DNA of 64,000 nucleotides from Rhodococcus sp. SMB37 (GTDB lineage: Bacteria; Actinomycetota; Actinomycetes; Mycobacteriales; Mycobacteriaceae), in assembly GCF_004345605.1 (NCBI RefSeq), contig NZ_SLVY01000009.1, positions 124,001 to 188,000 on the forward strand. Direction: 5' to 3'. This document shows positions 34,216-61,452 of this stretch, piece by piece (within the stretch, counting starts at the first letter, position 1; the number at the start of each line of letters is the position of its first letter). The notes under the pieces were generated by a model, which saw only the letters and a program-made list of their open reading frames with translations, did not search any database and was not told the DNA's origin. Position numbers and translations under genes: made by a program.

Positions 34216-34881
34216 GTGAAGACACTTCGTGTATCGCCCAGTGACACTGTCTTGATCTACGGGCTCGGTATCGCCGCACTCGCCTTGTCCTATACCGCGC
34301 TCGCCGACCTCGCAGCCCGGGCCGGACTCGGCGACTGGCAGTCGGCGGTGTGGCCGCTCGTCGTCGACGGACTCATCATTGCCGCGACCAGAGTGGTCGT
34401 GACGCTCGTCGACGGGGACGCACGCCGGTACGGATGGGTGTTGCTGTGGTCCGCGGTCGTGGTCTCGATCGCAGGGAACGCCGCGCACCTACTCCTGCCG
34501 CCGGGGCCGGTGCATCCGGCGGTCGCGACGGCGGTGGCGGTGGTGCCGCCGGTGGCTGCACTCGCGGTGACGCACCTGGCGATCGTGCGGGCGAGGGCGC
34601 GCGCACACGTCGAAACCGGGGGTGAAAGTATGCCAGAAAATATGCCAGCGACGGTGGATGACGCACTCATGACGCATGCGTCAGCGCAGCTCAGCGTCGT
34701 ATCCGAGGAACCCGCTCCCCCGCCGGCCGACGAGGCTGACGCACCGACCGACGCGGGTGACGCACTGCGTCATCGCGCGCGCCAGCTCCGCACCGAAGGG
34801 TGGAGCAACTACGCGATCGGCGAAGAGATCGGGAAGTCAGAGGCAACAGTTCGGCGGTGGCTGGCGACAGCTGCGTCGTAG
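34216..34881 (+). CDS. DUF2637 membrane protein with C-terminal HTH
   Basis: A 221-residue protein. About four transmembrane helices in residues 8-120 (SDTVLIYGLGIAALALSYTA, then VWPLVVDGLIIAATRVVV and others) form the DUF2637 region often found in actinobacterial phages, plasmids and ICEs. The cytoplasmic C terminus ends in an HTH-like segment (RQLRTEGWSNYAIGEEIGKS, then EATVRRWL). Such proteins may link DNA transactions to the membrane; function unproven. GTG start at 34216 with GGAGGG 9 bases upstream. First gene inside the prophage end. Confidence 0.8.
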   Translation: MKTLRVSPSDTVLIYGLGIAALALSYTALADLAARAGLGDWQSAVWPLVVDGLIIAATRVVVTLVDGDARRYGWVLLWSAVVVSIAGNAAHLLLPPGPVHPAVATAVAVVPPVAALAVTHLAIVRARARAHVETGGESMPENMPATVDDALMTHASAQLSVVSEEPAPPPADEADAPTDAGDALRHRARQLRTEGWSNYAIGEEIGKSEATVRRWLATAAS

Positions 34882-37035: not shown

Positions 37036-37057
37036 CCCGCTCCAGGAACGACGAAAT

Positions 37058-37090
37058 GCGCCCCACCTCGCATCGCATGAGGTGGGGCGC
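37058..37090. terminator. phage terminator hairpin, copy 2 of 5
   Basis: GCGCCCCACCTC pairs with GAGGTGGGGCGC around a 9-nt loop, after the AlpA-like gene. Confidence 0.85.
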
Positions 37091-37209
37091 ATTCCTATCG
37101 GATCGAGCGTTCGGGGGTCGCTCGAGCCGAACCGACCGTATCAACGACAGCCGAGCAGACTGGCTACGGGGTGAACGCGCCCCCATCGACACGACAGAAC
37201 GGAACCGAC

Positions 37210-53518: not shown

Positions 53519-54049
53519 TCAGACTCCTCCGTTCAATTGGACGTAGCCGGTGCCGATGTACGCCACCACGCCACCTTCTGGCCCGTAGGGCACGATCGAG
53601 TCGATCGCAGTGTTCAACCCGCATTCGGACTGCATGATCTTCGACATGGCCCGACACAAGGCGAGGTCGATCCGCCACGAGTCGTCGATGCCGATCTCCG
53701 CCTCGGTCGCGTAGTCATCCCACGACGGCTCCAACTCGACCACTGCGCAGCGTCCGACGCCGACCTCGATCGCGACCGCAGACGGCAGCCCGCACGGAGC
53801 CGGACCGACGAACGGGGCCGGGAATGCCTGTGTCCGGTATCGGCGGACGAGACGCACCCACAGGAACGGCTCACCGCAGTTGTCGCCACCTTCGGCGTGT
53901 GCGTTCCACGCTGAGAGTGGGATCGCGTCCCCGGCGAACACCCGGACGTGCTCGGTACCGCCGCCGAGCGGCGGATACTCCGAGCCCGGGGCGAATGCTT
54001 CCCGAAGCGCGGTGATCAGCGCGTTGATGACACAGTCGACGTCGTTCAT
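53519..54049 (-). CDS. tail terminator-like phage protein
   Basis: 176 residues from the ATG at 54049 (MNDVDCVINALITALREAFA), which overlaps the adaptor stop in ATGA. The body has EPFLWVRLVRRYRTQAFPAP and DDSWRIDLALCRAMSKIMQS. Size, position and the N-terminal helix fit a tail terminator/neck protein. The assignment rests mainly on gene order. Confidence 0.6.
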   Translation of the reverse strand: MNDVDCVINALITALREAFAPGSEYPPLGGGTEHVRVFAGDAIPLSAWNAHAEGGDNCGEPFLWVRLVRRYRTQAFPAPFVGPAPCGLPSAVAIEVGVGRCAVVELEPSWDDYATEAEIGIDDSWRIDLALCRAMSKIMQSECGLNTAIDSIVPYGPEGGVVAYIGTGYVQLNGGV

Positions 54050-54771
54050 CGCACCGTCGGCCTTTGCTGTAGCGCGGTCGGATTGACTGCGGCGAGCCAC
54101 AGGTCGATCTCCGAGAGACCGGTCTTACCGGAGGCGTAAATATCTTGCGGGTCCACCATCTGGTAGCTGACGTTGTTTCGCGTCATCGACTGCACACGCC
54201 GCGGCAGCCGGCACTTACCACCGGAACACGCTGCGAGGAACTCCTTCGTCAGCAACCCGACGAGCACCCCCACCCCGGCGGGTACGGGCACGCCACGTGT
54301 GTAGGTGACCGACCACGTGCCATCACTCCCTGACGGGGCGCTCAAGTCTTGGTTGGGCCAGTCCGGGCCGTCGACGCGGTACAACCGATCACCCTCGAGC
54401 CGGTACGCAGCCTCGTCGAGGGTGACCCCAGCGACCGTGACCGAGAGGATCTCACCGACCGGTCCGGGCAGGTGCACGACCCGCGGTCCGGACGCGGTGC
54501 AGGAGCCGGGGCAGTTGCAGGTGATGTTGCGCCACTGCCCGTCGTCGAACACCGGGAACCAGCCAGGACCATAGGTGCCGCTGGTCGTTGAGCATGCCTG
54601 CGGGCACGGACGTGCGATCACCGGGCACTGCCCGAACTGTCGGCCGGACAGCGCCCAGAGCACCGACACGGCGAGGTCCTCAGCGAGTCGTTGCTTCACG
54701 CGCTCCTCGGGGGTCGCTGCCTCGGGGAGGCAGGACCGGTCGATGGGCCAGGTGCAGGACATGGTGGTCAC
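54046..54771 (-). CDS. head-to-tail adaptor
   Basis: 241 residues. RVKQRLAEDLAVSVLWALSG near the N terminus, a cysteine-rich stretch (CPVIARPCPQACSTTSG ... CNCPGSCTAS), HLPGPVGEILSVTVAGVTLD and the C-terminal SYQMVDPQDIYASGKTGLSE match actinophage head-to-tail adaptors. Start at the 54771 GTG/ATG cluster. It is the first connector gene after the accessory island, so it needs its own promoter or read-through across the island. Confidence 0.75.
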   Translation of the reverse strand: MTTMSCTWPIDRSCLPEAATPEERVKQRLAEDLAVSVLWALSGRQFGQCPVIARPCPQACSTTSGTYGPGWFPVFDDGQWRNITCNCPGSCTASGPRVVHLPGPVGEILSVTVAGVTLDEAAYRLEGDRLYRVDGPDWPNQDLSAPSGSDGTWSVTYTRGVPVPAGVGVLVGLLTKEFLAACSGGKCRLPRRVQSMTRNNVSYQMVDPQDIYASGKTGLSEIDLWLAAVNPTALQQRPTVR

Positions 54772-54820: not shown

Positions 54821-54855
54821 GTAACGGAAGATGCGACGGATGGGATGTTCCGGGC
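54821..54855 (+). promoter_or_regulatory. conserved 35-bp leader element, copy 2
   Basis: GTAACGGAAGATGCGAC through TCCGGGC, same length and about three quarters identical to 34957-34991, again ending directly before the ATG of a membrane-protein gene. An upstream GTTAC (54803) forms an inverted pair with GTAAC. Confidence 0.55.
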
Positions 54856-55497
54856 ATGACCAATCCTCAGCCTGAATCGGGCAAGAAGAAGCGCTGGCCG
54901 CTCGTCCTCGGCGGCGTTGTGGCGGTGTTCGTCGGCCTCATTGTGCTCGGGTTGATCGTCGGCCCTCAAGAGGAGGAAGAGCCGGCACCTGCTGCGGCGG
55001 CCACAACGGAGGCCACGACTACGCAGGTGGAGCGCACCACCACGGCGCCGACCAGCACCAGCACATCAACAGCAGCGCCCACAACGACCACCGCAACCAC
55101 AACCACGACCACCGAGGCTCCCCCGCCCCCCGCTACAACCACCGCGGTGGCAGCACCGGTCGCGCGCTTCACCGATCCACGCTGCGCCCCCGCCGACCCC
55201 GGGATGATCGAGTGGATCAAGGCTGGCCTCACCGATTCGACCCTCATCCTCGACAACACGGCCGTGATCGACGACGGCGGACTTCTGTTCATCGGTGCAT
55301 CCACGGTGCGGCCGGATGGGAAGTTCGAGAACCGGTCGGATGTGTGGATCGTGCAGGACTCGATGCCGTTCTCGTCCACAGGTGGCGCACGCTCCACGAC
55401 GTCGTGGCCGAAGGCGAGCGACGTTCTGGGGATCTCTCCGGGAGATGAGCGGGTCCAGGCTGTGGATTCGTGTGTCGTAGAGCTCTCTCGCGGTTGA
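54856..55497 (+). CDS. membrane-anchored Thr-rich accessory protein
   Basis: 213 residues. A basic N terminus (SGKKKRW) and one transmembrane helix (PLVLGGVVAVFVGLIVLGLI) are followed by a ~70-residue Thr/Ala/Pro-rich extended linker and a C-terminal extracytoplasmic domain of about 100 residues with two cysteines. This is the layout of a surface-exposed stalked protein. Plus strand, opposite to the structural genes; its own leader element and the repeated terminator hairpin make it a moron. Superinfection exclusion is possible, unproven. Confidence 0.72.
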   Translation: MTNPQPESGKKKRWPLVLGGVVAVFVGLIVLGLIVGPQEEEEPAPAAAATTEATTTQVERTTTAPTSTSTSTAAPTTTTATTTTTTEAPPPPATTTAVAAPVARFTDPRCAPADPGMIEWIKAGLTDSTLILDNTAVIDDGGLLFIGASTVRPDGKFENRSDVWIVQDSMPFSSTGGARSTTSWPKASDVLGISPGDERVQAVDSCVVELSRG

Positions 55498-55519
55498 TTT
55501 TCCAACGCCCAATAGCAAG

Positions 55520-55550
55520 AGCGCCCCACCTCACGAAGAGGTGGGGCGCT
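55520..55550. terminator. phage terminator hairpin, copy 4 of 5
   Basis: AGCGCCCCACCTC pairs with GAGGTGGGGCGCT around ACGAA, 22 bases after the Thr-rich protein gene. Confidence 0.85.
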
Positions 55551-55608
55551 ACGCTTGATGCGCCCCAAACCTATTTTAATTAGGTCACAGTTGCAGTATG
55601 GTCTGGGA

Positions 55609-55718
55609 TAGTCGCGCGCGCCCCCCTGTTTCGCGCGACCCTGTTCCACCGTTCACCCCCCGAGCGGTGAAACCCAGCCCCGCCGCCCCGTGACTTCATA
55701 CCGGGACGGCGGGGCTTT
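55609..55718 (+). ncRNA. 6C-like small RNA with promoter and terminator
   Basis: Two successive hairpins each expose six cytosines. The first has stem GTCGCGCG/CGCGCGAC (55611-55639) with CCCCCC at 55621. The second has stem CACCG/CGGTG (55647-55669) with CCCCCC at 55656. This is the defining layout of actinobacterial 6C RNA. A terminator follows (AGCCCCGCCG/CGGCGGGGCT, 55676-55716, then TTT). A -10-like TATGGT at 55597 places the RNA start just before the first hairpin. No open frame overlaps. Confidence 0.65.
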
Positions 55719-55812
55719 CGAAATATCCAGACAGTAGGGGCATTTCATGTGACCATGAGCGTTGTCGGTCTGTGCGCCCGCAGGGGGATGCACAGACCGT
55801 CGCCACGAAACG

Positions 55813-56010
55813 ATGATCACCGAAGCAAACCGATCACATCGAAACAGACCAAAGGGTTTGATTGAGATTGTGACCCCAAAGCATTGGCGATGGACACGCG
55901 ACGAGCCGCTGTTCGACGATTCCAAATCTCCACTCGGTGATGTGGTCATCCTGGTGGCAACAGGCATCACCATCGCATTGATGGTGCTTGCGTATTACCT
56001 GGCACGGTAG
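55813..56010 (+). CDS. small C-terminally anchored membrane protein
   Basis: About 65 residues (MITEANRSHRNRPKGLIEIV ...). A soluble, basic/aromatic N-terminal half ends in one transmembrane helix (DVVILVATGITIALMVLAYY) and LAR. Start uncertain: no good ribosome binding site precedes the ATG at 55813; a TTG at 55762 would add 17 residues, and shorter forms are possible. Follows the 6C-like RNA in the accessory island. Confidence 0.5.
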   Translation: MITEANRSHRNRPKGLIEIVTPKHWRWTRDEPLFDDSKSPLGDVVILVATGITIALMVLAYYLAR

Positions 56011-56073
56011 ACCCATTGGCGCCGCAACAGCCATTGGACGGATCGGCCACTGCATCGATGCGGTAAGCGGCCG

Positions 56074-56277
56074 TCACTCAGACCACTGCACCCCGAACCA
56101 CCGCGGACCGACGTGCGGCGGCCGTTCAATCACGGCGTCGCACAAGCGGCACTGGTACGTGCGATGCCCCGTCGCGTCCGGCGTGCAGGTGCACGGCACC
56201 CATCCAACGAGGACACGGTTCGGCCCGAGCGGGTGCCCGTTCGGACACTCAGTCGGTGCGCGCTCGATCGACAACAT
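56074..56277 (-). CDS. zinc-ribbon protein
   Basis: 67 residues from the ATG at 56277 (MLSIERAPTECPNGHPLGPN). Paired metal motifs CPNGHPLG, PCTCTPD and YQCRLCDAVIERPPHVG indicate a zinc ribbon, similar to small zinc-ribbon proteins found across actinobacteria. The frame is open further upstream to 56436 but overlaps the structured RNA motif and lacks a ribosome site. Function unknown; opposite strand to the toxSAS gene. Confidence 0.65.
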   Translation of the reverse strand: MLSIERAPTECPNGHPLGPNRVLVGWVPCTCTPDATGHRTYQCRLCDAVIERPPHVGPRWFGVQWSE

Positions 56278-56323
56278 TCCGTTATCGTCGCACGCGTGTT
56301 CGATTCGAGGTAGCGTTCCATGC

Positions 56324-56367
56324 GCGGGCCGGTGGGACTCTCCGGAGTCCGGGAAGCACCGGCCCGC
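56324..56367 (+). ncRNA. structured RNA motif, copy B (GGGAAG bulge, UNCG loop)
   Basis: Outer 11-bp stem GCGGGCCGGTG/CACCGGCCCGC, inner 6-bp stem GGACTC-TCCG-GAGTCC and 3'-side bulge GGGAAG. Same fold as copy A at 35461-35500 with compensating changes in both stems. Lies 150 bases upstream of the RelA/SpoT-like gene (plus strand) and 47 bases upstream of the zinc-ribbon gene (minus strand). Confidence 0.6.
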
Positions 56368-56476
56368 ACTCTTCAACCCGGCGTGCTCGAGCATCCCCAT
56401 GAACCGCAGCAATATCTGTACGTCCTCGGCATCCATGTCTGGTTGGACGCAGCGCGCGGACGATCGGTTCCCCCTC

Positions 56477-56508
56477 TATCCCACACCACCCATCGCCTGG
56501 GATATAGG
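56477..56508 (+). promoter_or_regulatory. promoter with inverted repeat, leaderless start for the toxSAS gene
   Basis: TATAGG (56503-56508) lies 8 bases before the GTG start, so transcription should begin at or next to the start codon (leaderless). TATCCCA (56477-56483) and TGGGATA (56498-56504) form a 7-bp inverted repeat overlapping the -10, a likely operator, perhaps for autoregulation by the toxin/partner pair. Confidence 0.5.
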
Positions 56509-56516
56509 CTGCGTCA

Positions 56517-57353
56517 GTGCTGCTAACGGACACTCCAGCCTGGTCGAAAAAGAAGCTCGGGAGGCTCGGGCGCGCCTTAGCTGACGGCTCGGTACCACCC
56601 GAGAATTGCCCCGCCTACGACGACGTCATGCTGTGGCATCACGAACTTGCCGCCACGATCGCCGACGAGGTCGCCTCCCGCCGTTGGGAATCGTCCGCGG
56701 GCATCGAGCTAGAGGTTTCGTCTCGCGGTAAGACAATCGACACCCTGATCCAGAAGCTACGTCGCCCCCCACTCATCCCACTCGACCAGGTTCAGGACCT
56801 TGCCGGCGTACGCGTAGACGCGGATATGACGCTCAGTCAGCAGACTGCGTTCGCGCACGAACTCGCAGCGCACTACGAGGTCGAAGAGCGATGTCACCGG
56901 GACCTTCGCGCAGACCCACACAGCGGCTACCGCGCCTACCACCTATGGCTACGGGTGCCTGCTGGTCGCGCCGAAATCCAGATCCGCACGGAAGGCCAGA
57001 GCGCCTGGGCCAACACCTACGAACGCATGGGAGACACATTCGGTCGGGGGATCCGATACGACGAAGCTCCCAGCAACAGGAATGTCCAGAAACTCGTCGA
57101 GATAATGCACTCCATGTCTGAGATGCTCATGCGCATCGAAACGCAGCGGGACGAACTGAGCTATGGCCAGCAGGAGGCAGAGGCGAGGGCCGTACTGGAT
57201 GAAAGCCCTCACCCAGAACTTCACGTAGGTCTGGCCATCACACTGGAGTCGATCGAGCGGAGGCGTCGCGATTATGACCAGCTCCACGCCGACCACCTGG
57301 CTCAGATGGACAAGATCCGTCGTATGATCGAGGACCTGGAGGAGGTGTCCTGA
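56517..57353 (+). CDS. RelA/SpoT-type alarmone synthetase-like protein (toxSAS candidate)
   Basis: 278 residues with one RelA/SpoT nucleotide-transfer domain and no hydrolase, TGS or ACT domain. Expected catalytic sites are present: ATP-binding SSRGK (R70, K72), metal Asp D94 in VQDLAGVRV, G-loop GYRAYH (Y138/H142) and EIQIRT (E153, Q155). The C-terminal ~100 residues are helical, coiled-coil-like. Phage RelA/SpoT proteins of this kind (e.g. Phrann gp29 and other toxSAS) pyrophosphorylate nucleotides or tRNA and abort infection. GTG start, probably leaderless. The next gene abuts it. Confidence 0.82.
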   Translation: MLLTDTPAWSKKKLGRLGRALADGSVPPENCPAYDDVMLWHHELAATIADEVASRRWESSAGIELEVSSRGKTIDTLIQKLRRPPLIPLDQVQDLAGVRVDADMTLSQQTAFAHELAAHYEVEERCHRDLRADPHSGYRAYHLWLRVPAGRAEIQIRTEGQSAWANTYERMGDTFGRGIRYDEAPSNRNVQKLVEIMHSMSEMLMRIETQRDELSYGQQEAEARAVLDESPHPELHVGLAITLESIERRRRDYDQLHADHLAQMDKIRRMIEDLEEVS

Positions 57354-57578
57354 GTGCCTAGTTTCGTCATCGAGTTCAATCGTCGCACTCGCGATCGTCG
57401 GGTCACTGAGTTCAACGGCCCCACTTCGAGTCGGGATGCGATGCGCCGTCGCCTCGAACTGGAGCATGCAGGACGCGAGAAGGATGTGGAGATCGTGGCT
57501 CTGACCAGTGGATCTCTTAAGATGCTGAAGAAGACACACGCCCGATATTTCACCGGACGTGAGTTGATCAGCCATTGA
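57354..57578 (+). CDS. small partner of the RelA/SpoT-like protein, candidate antitoxin
   Basis: 74 residues. The GTG start follows the toxSAS stop with no gap (TGAGTG), and GAGGAGG lies upstream within the toxSAS end. The sequence FVIEFNRRTRDRRVTEFNGP ... VEIVALTSGSLKMLKKTHAR is an alpha/beta mix with basic character; no family I can name. Toxin-first order with immediate coupling is common for toxSAS-antitoxin pairs, so antitoxin is the leading guess (inference). Confidence 0.65.
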   Translation: MPSFVIEFNRRTRDRRVTEFNGPTSSRDAMRRRLELEHAGREKDVEIVALTSGSLKMLKKTHARYFTGRELISH

Positions 57579-57597
57579 TCCGCTCCCCTGACGACTG

Positions 57598-57632
57598 AAA
57601 GCGCCCCACCTCACGAAGAGGTGGGGCACTTT
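57598..57632. terminator. phage terminator hairpin, copy 5 of 5
   Basis: AAAGCGCCCCACCTC pairs with GAGGTGGGGCACTTT (one mismatch) around ACGAA; T-flanked on the plus strand and A-flanked on the other, so it can act in both directions. It separates the toxSAS pair from the converging zinc-ribbon gene. Confidence 0.88.
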
Positions 57633-57641
57633 GTTTGCGTG

Positions 57642-57845
57642 CTACCAGCTCTCGCGAGCCGTGAACACGTTGCGGCCCGTCGCAGGGCACTGAGTGGTGA
57701 TGTAGGTGTCGCCACGACGGTCCTGGAAGTTGTGCTCTACGAACACCCACGGGCTGGTTCGCTCGTCGGTGATCTGTTCGGTTCCGTCGTGGCGCATCGC
57801 AATGTGTTGCCTGCATCGGGGGCACGTCTGAGTTGTCATGCTCAT
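57642..57845 (-). CDS. small zinc-binding protein
   Basis: 67 residues. TQTCPRCRQHIAMRHDGTEQ, then FVEHNFQDRRGDTYITTQCP, has a CxxC, histidines and a further Cys, as in short actinobacterial/phage zinc-finger proteins. Start among GTG 57848, ATG 57845 and ATG 57839; no clear ribosome binding site. Edge gene of the accessory island, same strand as the structural genes. Confidence 0.6.
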   Translation of the reverse strand: MSMTTQTCPRCRQHIAMRHDGTEQITDERTSPWVFVEHNFQDRRGDTYITTQCPATGRNVFTARESW

Positions 57846-57912
57846 CACATACTCAATACCTGCCGCGGCGTTACCGGGCCACCTATAGGGATGCGTTACG
57901 AGCGGGTGTGGC

Positions 57913-59631
57913 TCAGGCCCAGCCGCCAGCGACCAGAGCGTCCCGCCACGCCTTCGAGGCGAGCGCGTACGCGTAGTCGTTCATGTGCAGCTGGTCGCCC
58001 TTCAATCCGGGGATGCCCTCGTTCGGCTGCACCGGCAGTACACCCAGTGCGGTCCGCAGGTTCGCACCGGGAATCACATCGGGATTGCTCGTGAAGTGAT
58101 CGAGCGCATCCTGCCAGCCCGGCATCAACTCGCTCTGATACCAGTCCTCGAGACCCGTGGTCGCGCCGTAGCAGGTGAAGCCCAACGCGACCTTAAACCC
58201 ACGGTCCAGCCAGAACTGGGTGGCGTTGATGAGTGCCTGCGCATACTTGGCGCGGGGGGCGTTCATCGTCTTGTCGCCCTGGCCGATGGAGATGATCGCC
58301 CACTTCTCGTCGTAGTCGACCGAGCGTCCCGCGACCTGCGCGGTGGCCGCTGCGAAGTATCCGTTCGGGTCGAACCGACTATCCCCGTCCTTGTAGACGT
58401 ACCCCTCGACCTCGTGCGCAGCCGGGACTCCGATGTACACCCATGGCACCGAATCCGCACCGGTCACATCTGATGTTCCAGTCGGGGCAACGGTCGAGTT
58501 CCCCGCCGTACCGGCCGGGTAGTTGCACTTCCACAGTCCACCACCCGACAGGACATAGGAGCCGCGGCCCACCGCGATACCCGACACCCATGCGCGGATG
58601 TGCCCGCACCACGACGATGTCGCCGAGGTGGAGCCGACCGCAGTGTTGACCACGTCCGTCCACACACCGAGCTGCCCGAGCAGATCGGACAGCAGGGGCC
58701 ACCACGACCGCGATGCGGCCCCATTCGGGGCGACCGGGTCGATCAGCGGATAGCCGTACTCGGTATTGAACGAGCGCCACAGACCAGAGCCGACCTCGTT
58801 CGACTGGCCGGGTCCGACCGCGATCAGGACAGACTTGGAGGTGGACAGGAACTCGGCCTGCGAGATCGGCGAGGACGGATTCTCGTACAGCTTGCGGGCC
58901 ACCTGCCCGATGTTCGAGGGCAATCCGGCATCCTCGAGCACCATCAGATGCAGACCCTTGAGCTTGGACGCCATCGTGGTCGCGGCGTTGATGACGTTTC
59001 CGGACGAGCCGAAGTTCCACGTCGATGACGGTGCGGTCGTGCCCGTGTAGTAGTTCGGGTACGACCCCGCCAGGAGCCCGTCGATGAACACGAACACCGA
59101 GCGGGTGGGGGCGTCGATCGCAAGGACGACGTGGTGATCGGTACCGTCGAACACGACCGGGGTCGGCATGATCAGGGCCGACACGAGCCCGCTGGAGGTC
59201 GTGATCAGGACCCGCACCTGTCCGGTGCTGCGCGCCGAAATGTAGACGCCCTGCCTGGTCGAGGCGTCGGCGTTCCCCATCAGGGGCGGATTGCCGGCGG
59301 GCTGCGCAGCGTTGACCGTGAACGCGAGAATCAACGAGTCCGTGGCGAGATCGAACGTGGTCTTGTCTGCGGAGATGCACACGCCCTTGCCGGTGCCGTC
59401 TCCGGTGCTGATGTACCCCTTGTTCGCCCACAGTGCGGTGGGGCTGTAGGTGGCGGCAGGAATGATTGCGTCTGCGCCGTTGCCGGATCGGTCGATCACA
59501 GACGTTTCGATGGCCTGCGTTCCGGTCAGGAGGAATCGGTACGGGGTCGCGGGAGTGGACATCGACAGCTTGTCGACGTACTTGCGGCGGGCGTCAGCCT
59601 TCGCCATGCCGAGGGTCACGGGATCCATCAC
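57913..59631 (-). CDS. tail protein with LamG-like and SGNH/esterase domains
   Basis: 572 residues. Residues ~40-240 form a concanavalin/LamG-type beta-sandwich (SLILAFTVNAAQPAGN; HHVVLAIDAPTRSVFVFIDG). Residues ~270-570 are an SGNH-type hydrolase: nucleophile block VGPGQSNEVGSGLW and catalytic His near GDQLHMNDYAYALASKAW. Probably a virion enzyme that cuts an esterified surface glycan during adsorption. The start overlaps the previous gene (ATGA). Confidence 0.78.
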   Translation of the reverse strand: MMDPVTLGMAKADARRKYVDKLSMSTPATPYRFLLTGTQAIETSVIDRSGNGADAIIPAATYSPTALWANKGYISTGDGTGKGVCISADKTTFDLATDSLILAFTVNAAQPAGNPPLMGNADASTRQGVYISARSTGQVRVLITTSSGLVSALIMPTPVVFDGTDHHVVLAIDAPTRSVFVFIDGLLAGSYPNYYTGTTAPSSTWNFGSSGNVINAATTMASKLKGLHLMVLEDAGLPSNIGQVARKLYENPSSPISQAEFLSTSKSVLIAVGPGQSNEVGSGLWRSFNTEYGYPLIDPVAPNGAASRSWWPLLSDLLGQLGVWTDVVNTAVGSTSATSSWCGHIRAWVSGIAVGRGSYVLSGGGLWKCNYPAGTAGNSTVAPTGTSDVTGADSVPWVYIGVPAAHEVEGYVYKDGDSRFDPNGYFAAATAQVAGRSVDYDEKWAIISIGQGDKTMNAPRAKYAQALINATQFWLDRGFKVALGFTCYGATTGLEDWYQSELMPGWQDALDHFTSNPDVIPGANLRTALGVLPVQPNEGIPGLKGDQLHMNDYAYALASKAWRDALVAGGWA

Positions 59632-60636: not shown

Positions 60637-61452
60637 CTAAGGGGTGGAAACACACACGGCCGGGTCACCGGCAATGTCGGCAGCGGGTTCGGCAGCGGGG
60701 CCACCGAAGTAGTAGTCCGGTGCGGTGAACATGGTCGGGATGTCCAGCGGGCAGCATTCCTCGCCCGGGGTCGGCTCCGGAGGAGCGACCGGGGTGCGCT
60801 GGATGACCAGATGCTGATCATCCGTGACTGGGGTGAGCAGGCGACCCGGCGTGTTCGCGGCATCGGTGGGGACAACGTTCCACGGGCCACGGCCCCACTG
60901 CGGACCGGCGAAGGTGATGCCGGTGAGCGTGAAGTTCGCGACCGACGCCGCGATCTCAATGTCACCGAGCGTGAACTCAGTACCGAACGTCAGGAAGTAG
61001 CCGTACGACTTCCCCGTCGACGCCGACGCGAAGATCGAGTCATCCTCCGGGGTCGGGCAGTCGTCCCCGGCCTTACCGCCGGCCCACACCTCGAGCGCGA
61101 CACCGTAGTCGGACTCGACACGACGCTGGTCACGGACACCAACGGCGTTACCTTCCCAGTCGAGTTCCTGCTCCCAGCCGTTGAACAGCGTGATCAGGCA
61201 CGTGTTTACCTGGCAGAGGGTCAGGGTGAGGTTGTAGTACTTGCGTTCGGGCGGGGTGCGCTCGGCAACACAGACGCGGCCTTCCGCGTTGCGCTGCTCC
61301 AGCTCTTCCGCTTCCTGCATGACGGGGGAGATTGCGAGGGACACCCAGCCGTTCGTCACCGCGTAGTTCGCGGCGCCAGACACTGGGAGACCACACGAGT
61401 TGACCTTGGTGGCCCGCAGGCGTGTGCCCTTGACCACTGGGAAAACAGCCAC
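60637..61452 (-). CDS. probable major tail protein
   Basis: 271 residues; GTG start at 61452 with AAAGGAG upstream. TRLRATKVNSCGLPVSGAAN, GWVSLAISPVMQEAEELEQR, LITLFNGWEQEL and GYFLTFGTEFTLGDIEIA are the tail-tube pattern seen in actinophages. A Pro/Cys-rich C-terminal extension (PEPTPGEECCPLD) follows. It lies upstream of the head-tail connectors, an unusual order, so a decoration or other tube-like role is possible. Confidence 0.65.
   Translation of the reverse strand: MAVFPVVKGTRLRATKVNSCGLPVSGAANYAVTNGWVSLAISPVMQEAEELEQRNAEGRVCVAERTPPERKYYNLTLTLCQVNTCLITLFNGWEQELDWEGNAVGVRDQRRVESDYGVALEVWAGGKAGDDCPTPEDDSIFASASTGKSYGYFLTFGTEFTLGDIEIAASVANFTLTGITFAGPQWGRGPWNVVPTDAANTPGRLLTPVTDDQHLVIQRTPVAPPEPTPGEECCPLDIPTMFTAPDYYFGGPAAEPAADIAGDPAVCVSTP

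Follow-up and report, generated by a model that had tools for sequence, protein, structure and literature searches.

The gp29/gp30 pair of phage Phrann protects Mycobacterium smegmatis lysogens from several phages, Tweety among them (PMC9262239), and CapRel-SJ46, which is kin to PhRel and ATphRel, has a capsid protein as its activator (PMC9712102). PhRel binds tRNA, and for toxic small alarmone synthetases (toxSAS) that target tRNA, neutralisation is predicted to take place at the donor site (PMC11782079). Among regulatory RNAs, 6C (RF01066; PMC6789036, PMC6582537) includes B11 of Mycobacterium, which works through C-rich loops (PMC10470900); all these statements hold for the excerpts of the papers used here. 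Here, we describe a prophage island in Rhodococcus sp. SMB37, located at positions 54,821 to 57,845 of a 64,000-nucleotide stretch (the window; positions 124001-188000 of contig 9, NZ_SLVY01000009.1, in the 6.2-Mb host genome, G000). Our reading, with a probability of roughly 0.7, is that a temperate Rosebush-type phage carries, as cargo in a slot of its structural module, a PhRel:ATphRel-type defence pair and a C-rich-loop small RNA (sRNA) belonging to an uncatalogued family of the genus. The features on which this reading turns are as follows (window coordinates).

54046..54771, minus strand: head-tail adaptor, one border of the slot (PHROG 783, E 1.8e-99; 834 matching phage records)
55597..55602, plus strand: -10-like box TATGGT, 8 nt before the first C-loop hairpin
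55605..55724, plus strand: C-rich-loop sRNA (fold z -5.3; 35.1 bits with model R2, described below)
55611-55639 and 55647-55669, plus strand: the two hairpins of the RNA, both with C6 loops, with an intrinsic terminator at 55676-55716
55764..55801, plus strand: G-rich-loop hairpin, loop GCAGGGGG (fold z -3.4), spaced from the RNA as in relatives
56517..57353, plus strand: PhRel-type toxic small alarmone synthetase (Pfam RelA_SpoT, E 1.1e-10; PHROG 4773; PADLOC PDC-S33)
57354..57578, plus strand: ATphRel-type antitoxin (PHROG 22117, E 1.8e-24), abutting the toxin gene at 57353
60637..61452, minus strand: major tail protein, the other border of the slot (PHROG 792, E 7e-120)

The element is a prophage, since integration genes lie at its ends: its IMG/VR entry (provirus L046, 53,338 bp) extends by arithmetic from window position 34216 to contig position 211553, where an excisionase-like open reading frame (ORF) starts and an integrase-like ORF ends, respectively. 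On the minus strand, the late genes run in the order major tail protein, head-fibre-like, minor-tail-like, SGNH-like, island, and head-tail adaptor, with the tape measure beyond. The slot between the major tail protein and the adaptor was followed through 98 loci besides the window's own copies, 86 with both borders and 12 that stop short of the major tail protein. Among the 86, which include some duplicate records, it measures at most 150 bp in 34, 151-1000 bp in 28, and more than 1000 bp in 24, and of the 44 slots longer than 400 bp, 25 have their best ORF on the opposite strand (a rough call, again with some duplicate records). Across 12 annotated phage records compared at this place, the slot has no gene in Wooper and prophiT49-1 and is about 570 bp long and unannotated in NTR1; late-strand SGNH, esterase, or phosphoesterase genes fill it in ReqiPine5, StorminNorm, and OneinaGillian, and opposite-strand genes in Skermania SPI1 (four), prophi79-1 (seven, genes 7-13), Oosterbaan (three, 19-21), Godines (two, 22-23), Athena (one), and CRB2 (one). 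The nearest same-genus relative, a prophage in genome G008 (major tail protein 86% and adaptor 76% identical), holds 4.2 kb of different cargo there. A PhRel homologue was found in none of the 98 other slot loci, 12 of them without the major tail protein border.

Because the flanks are common to many phages while the cargo varies, the island is, by these sequence comparisons, accessory cargo in a recurrent slot of Rosebush-type structural modules, and the absence of PhRel from the 98 other slot loci sets it apart from the ordinary late genes of this phage group. A preliminary description of this DNA had placed an accessory island of mixed-strand genes here, which the gene calls and the differing cargo of relatives bear out; the G008 prophage, with shared flanks and other cargo, supports the same view, and the notion of ordinary late genes present in all relatives is contradicted by the 0 of 98 count. 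In the G008 slot itself (L038, 10400-11700), several small genes seem to have a common repeat immediately before their start codons.

The toxin carries the RelA_SpoT domain PF04607 at 42.2 bits (cut-off 27) and is 44% identical to Phrann gp29 over 97%, the partner being 59% identical to gp30; for the WST1 pair, the values are 52% (toxin) and 62% (partner). Motifs HSGYR, QIRT, and WANTYER are invariant between the island, Phrann, and WST1 toxins. Positions 5-232 of PDC-S33 match the toxin and 266-329 match the partner, a pattern that would be expected of a split CapRel-type toxin-antitoxin. Toxin matches occur in 5 of 18 same-genus genomes, the host's own included; three have the pair (partner 55-58%), and the pair in a fourth is weak (30% and 35%). 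Searched by sequence against solved structures, the toxin matched only housekeeping-type synthetases and the antitoxin had no credible match. The RelA/SpoT-like synthetase with an abutting partner, as first described, is thus confirmed by its RelA_SpoT and PHROG 22117 matches, and the pair is, judged by homology, a relative of a published prophage-borne defence and not a new kind. Its expected action is abortive infection: the antitoxin would keep the alarmone-synthetase-like toxin inactive until infection by another phage, when, as with Phrann gp29/gp30 and CapRel, the toxin would be freed, pyrophosphorylate tRNA, block translation, and so abort the infection.

A scan for two C6-loop hairpins within 90 nt gives a single hit in the window and none in 40 Markov-1 copies of the window, and it also recovers the host's true 6C, which lies elsewhere in the genome (78 bits). 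The window RNA does not match Rfam 6C RF01066 at gathering or up to E 10, and seven loci with relatives or candidates give no RF01066 match at gathering; of the earlier label, a 6C-like RNA, the shape (two C-rich-loop hairpins) therefore stands and the family does not. A model made from two identical rows of the window RNA (R1) failed to tell relatives apart from GC-rich background, so a covariance model, R2, was derived from relatives with the window copy left out; it covers one C hairpin plus terminator. R2 scores the window copy at 35.1 bits (E 0.014 for the whole genome, top rank there) and five other copies kept out of the model at 36.4-44.4 bits, the next candidate being L108 at 27.4 bits; the highest scores not counted as copies are 23.4 bits in the same search and 21.2 bits in 72 other loci (791,546 bases). 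The second-best match in the host genome (L194, G000:C6:176994-177065, 32.7 bits) lies outside the prophage.

Searched with R2 at E up to 0.001, 201 family genomes yielded 20 places in 8 genomes, all Rhodococcus, some of them deep in chromosome-size contigs (G006 C1, G009 C1, and G013 C2). The C-loop hairpin and terminator also occur in the L076, L108, and L110 slots, upstream of the adaptor in L072 and L073 (on contigs too short to reach the other border), and next to a weak PhRel homologue in G001 (L006); L072 and L110 have three C-loop units each. Of 401 family genomes, 5 contain relatives of the L110 stretch by BLAST, as do 11 plasmid records, all from Rhodococcus and one of them the L110 element itself; 50,697 phage records gave none. 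A Fic-family gene is near four of the six other plasmid copies inspected. By the searches here, this RNA family appears to be absent from Rfam 15, and a literature search, with most subscription journals outside its scope, found no paper on such an RNA in Rhodococcus; the window RNA looks like a divergent member of this uncatalogued C-rich-loop sRNA family.

Pairing is preserved across relatives in tests in which related sequences may exceed shuffles even without structure. For the C hairpin plus terminator (12 sequences), 96.8% of cells pair versus 40-52% when slid, with 5 pairs changed on both sides (7/500 shuffles), 12 such cells (0/500), and a covariation score of 0.243 versus 0.153. When the G-loop hairpin is included (13 units), 92.4% of cells pair versus 38.9-46.9% when slid, with 7 pairs changed on both sides (7/500) and 11 such cells (0/500); further pair types are not above shuffles (391/500 for the 13 units, 170/500 for the 12 sequences). 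An arm-swap test (94/96 own pairs, 562/1056 swapped) was not counted because the hairpins had been chosen for pairing. The G-loop hairpin is present in 18 of 35 copies, the window included, by a scan over a range of 60-260 nt that carries no background rate; 17 of them lie 134-147 nt from the start used, the window at 136 nt and 16 others. Several places in this 35-copy set appear under two names (L160/L181, L165/L173), and L181 and L182 are misplaced by a fixed offset. The G hairpin strand has 24 GU versus 6 AC cells in relatives, which favours the same strand as the RNA and lowers an opposite-strand reading. Given the 13 units, RNAalifold did not fold the C and G hairpins separately but joined the C-loop core to the G loop by 13 mostly invariant pairs, so that the separate hairpins and a C-G duplex are alternatives. 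Complementarity between the two loops reaches 8-16 bp in 13 relatives and 14 bp in the L160/L167-type unit. Two candidates answer to the uncatalogued hairpin of the preliminary description: 55764-55801, which recurs beside the RNA in relatives, and 56322-56370, which lies inside the zinc-ribbon coding sequence. The RNA would use a promoter and a terminator of its own, and its probable role, by analogy with 6C/B11, is repression via C-rich loops that would pair with G-tracts in 5' leaders and so lower translation; the G-loop hairpin after it is probably a partner or decoy.

Several results weigh against the reading adopted here. The R2 match of the window is weak and divergent (E 0.014, with 32.7 bits reached elsewhere in the same genome), its first hairpin lies outside the model, and the host genome was missed in the 201-genome search at E 1e-3, as were the other members of a list of seven same-genus genomes (own included) that gave no match at E up to 0.001. 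One candidate that resembles a copy by eye and by descriptor (L090) has no R2 match. DNA searches with the window RNA gave nothing significant among phages and nothing taken for a relative in 301 family genomes; the best foreign match (G287, E 1.2e-4 for one genome) was set aside as what looks like a coding sequence sharing one hairpin. The complementarity of the window C and G loops is 8 bp, reached by 1238 of 2000 shuffles. Copies beside sugar-transferase and histidine-kinase genes indicate that the family is not confined to mobile elements. A scan of the island for sigma70-type promoters found none (chance expectation, 0.6); the earlier proposal that each unit has its own expression signals is not upheld, as a -10-like box of the type seen in relatives precedes the RNA alone.

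Other explanations differ in how far these results favour them. It is extremely improbable that the island consists of ordinary late genes for this type of phage: minor-tail, fibre-like, and SGNH-like slot genes do lie on the structural strand, but comparison of relatives already contradicts the idea through the lack of PhRel in the other 98 slots, the 34 of 86 slots of at most 150 bp, and the opposite-strand cargo. Toxin-antitoxin pairs can stabilise mobile elements, and defence is assigned to PhRel:ATphRel by homology alone, so the pair might serve prophage maintenance rather than phage defence. We consider this rather unlikely, since the closest homologue that has been characterised, Phrann gp29/gp30, confers defence from a prophage, according to the part of the source used (PMC9262239).

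For the RNA, the C-rich hairpins could be part of a compound transcription terminator and not an sRNA at all, as the GC-rich terminator immediately 3' and the T-rich tails would allow. Against this, 24 of 35 copies have a -10-like TANNNT no more than 32 nt upstream (background, 3.8%; the count scores the window as a miss because the region scanned there was the one upstream of its second hairpin), the loops keep their C run while the stems change on both sides, and there are plasmid copies where no gene is listed under the match (in an incomplete gene table); a terminator is thus unlikely. A type I toxin-antitoxin, with the one-helix protein described below as toxin and its leader (the G-loop hairpin) blocked by the C-loop RNA, would account for the order of C-loop RNA, G-loop hairpin, and one-helix ORF in the window, L076, and L110, and for the RNAalifold pairing of C-loop core and G loop in relatives, but the scanned plasmid and genome copies of the RNA have no such ORF downstream and complementarity in the window is no better than chance, which makes it very unlikely. 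The C-loop RNA and G-loop hairpin might also act together as a two-part RNA switch, in which the regulator brings its kissing-loop partner along, carried by Rhodococcus mobile elements to rewire or hijack host 6C-type G-tract control and governing here the one-helix protein or the PhRel unit; we regard this as a doubtful extension of a cargo sRNA with 6C/B11-like action, which we continue to prefer.

The remaining cargo and the neighbouring large gene are as follows.

54856..55497, plus strand: Thr-rich one-helix membrane protein, with a C-terminal domain (aa ~104-213) common to other proviruses
55520..55547, plus strand: 28-base terminator-like repeat, copy 1, with the T-richer tail on the minus strand (fold z -7.1)
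55870..56010, plus strand: small one-helix membrane protein of 46 aa (65 aa if started at the ATG at 55813)
56074..56436, minus strand: zinc-ribbon-like protein of 120 aa (PHROG 12017, E 1.8e-8)
56322..56370, minus strand: GC-rich hairpin within the zinc-ribbon coding sequence (fold z -4.3; Rfam at chance level)
57600..57627, plus strand: terminator repeat, copy 2, with a T-rich tail
57642..57848, minus strand: small CxxC protein, putatively zinc binding (PHROG 16186, partial, E 3e-4)
57913..59631, minus strand: large protein on the structural strand, SGNH-like on motif alone

A Thr-rich membrane protein, a one-helix membrane protein, and a zinc ribbon had all been named in the preliminary description, and all three hold. 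The C-terminal domain of the first was found in seven other IMG/VR loci (six at 60-61% identity and one at 42%), near the ends of other proviruses. In L076, a homologue of the one-helix protein shares 52% identity with it, and L110 also has a small one-helix ORF 3' of the RNA. For the zinc ribbon, residues 45-120 have a 55% match in Rhodococcus phage ReT1v-1 and residues 1-37 a 51% match to L074, beginning at the L074 start codon; relatives of one part or the other are found in L063, L064, L069, and L074. In L063, L064, and L069, the Thr-rich protein's domain and a zinc-ribbon relative are in the same locus. The second zinc-binding protein that had been proposed has a partial PHROG match as its one piece of evidence and is not confirmed. 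The SGNH assignment of the large protein, made from a motif, has no backing in Pfam or PHROG, where no supported family match was found, and phage records gave no match either; SGNH, esterase, or phosphoesterase genes occupy the same slot in the three phages named above.

Repeated terminators had also been described: the two 28-base copies are indeed identical, and copy 1 has no T run on the plus strand. No third copy, with up to 3 mismatches, exists in the 6.2-Mb genome. Paired terminators as the ends of a mobile cassette were considered and rejected, as a 25-base core also occurs once in provirus L061 and was treated as a generic terminator; 10 kb of L061 gave no close match to the island proteins.

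Whether the parts belong together was judged from their separate distributions. A PhRel homologue is present in 1 of 42 loci around RNA copies and related slots (L187, the L006 place in G001), model R2 has no match in the PhRel-bearing stretches of Phrann and WST1, and nothing was found linking the cargo other than the pair, the Thr-rich, one-helix, and zinc-ribbon proteins included, to defence. Since the parts occur separately in the compared stretches, the whole combination is not supported as one anti-phage system; the prophage-borne anti-phage system first suggested is retained, by homology, for the RelA/SpoT pair.

Further observations concern the RNA and its surroundings. The window has a second C-rich-loop hairpin at 37053-37130 on the minus strand (loop ACCCCCGAA), downstream of an endolysin-like gene and with a strong terminator directly after it; model R2 gives no match there. 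The sequence GTTACGAGCGGG (window 57895-57906, just past the SGNH-like gene) also lies 3' of an RNA unit in L072, a layout that would fit an insertion of PhRel and its neighbours between the RNA and the SGNH gene. A 68-kb circular "plasmid" of Rhodococcus sp. DMF-1 (L172, NZ_CP090444.1) is 100% identical to L110 over that stretch. The provirus recorded as L110 in IMG/VR may therefore be a phage-plasmid; L172 has SocA-domain antitoxin and MazF-like genes no more than about 2 kb from the RNA. Five R2 matches in same-genus genomes with a shorter loop, CCCCTGC (L180, L184, L185, L186, and L189), look like a group of their own, and L184 and L189 adjoin a bacterial sugar transferase gene.

Compared with known systems, the new part of the island is the C-rich-loop RNA, the defence pair belonging to a known kind. 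The pair shares its gene order and prophage location with Phrann gp29/gp30 and CapRel, and one PADLOC model spans both of its proteins as it would a fused protein, whereas its place among structural genes differs from that of the Phrann pair, beyond the lysis genes. Accessory genes between the major tail protein and adaptor of other Rosebush-type phages (Bclasvirinae and others) have the same place and the opposite strand (Oosterbaan, Godines, and prophi79-1) but different products, mostly hypothetical and without PhRel; the slot shows annotators of this phage group where to seek lysogenic and defence genes. The RNA resembles sX13 (RF02232) in its C-rich-loop hairpins and terminator, but its match to that model is weak (26.2 bits, E 0.035) and does not reach the gathering score of 50, and sX13 is a family of Xanthomonadaceae. 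Like 6C, it has two C6-loop hairpins and then a terminator; unlike 6C, its family is multi-copy in some genomes, occurs also on mobile elements, and often has a G-loop hairpin after it. The family thus unites 6C loop chemistry with a different sequence and, often, a neighbouring opposite loop, and offers a small testable case of mobile elements possibly imitating a host regulatory RNA.

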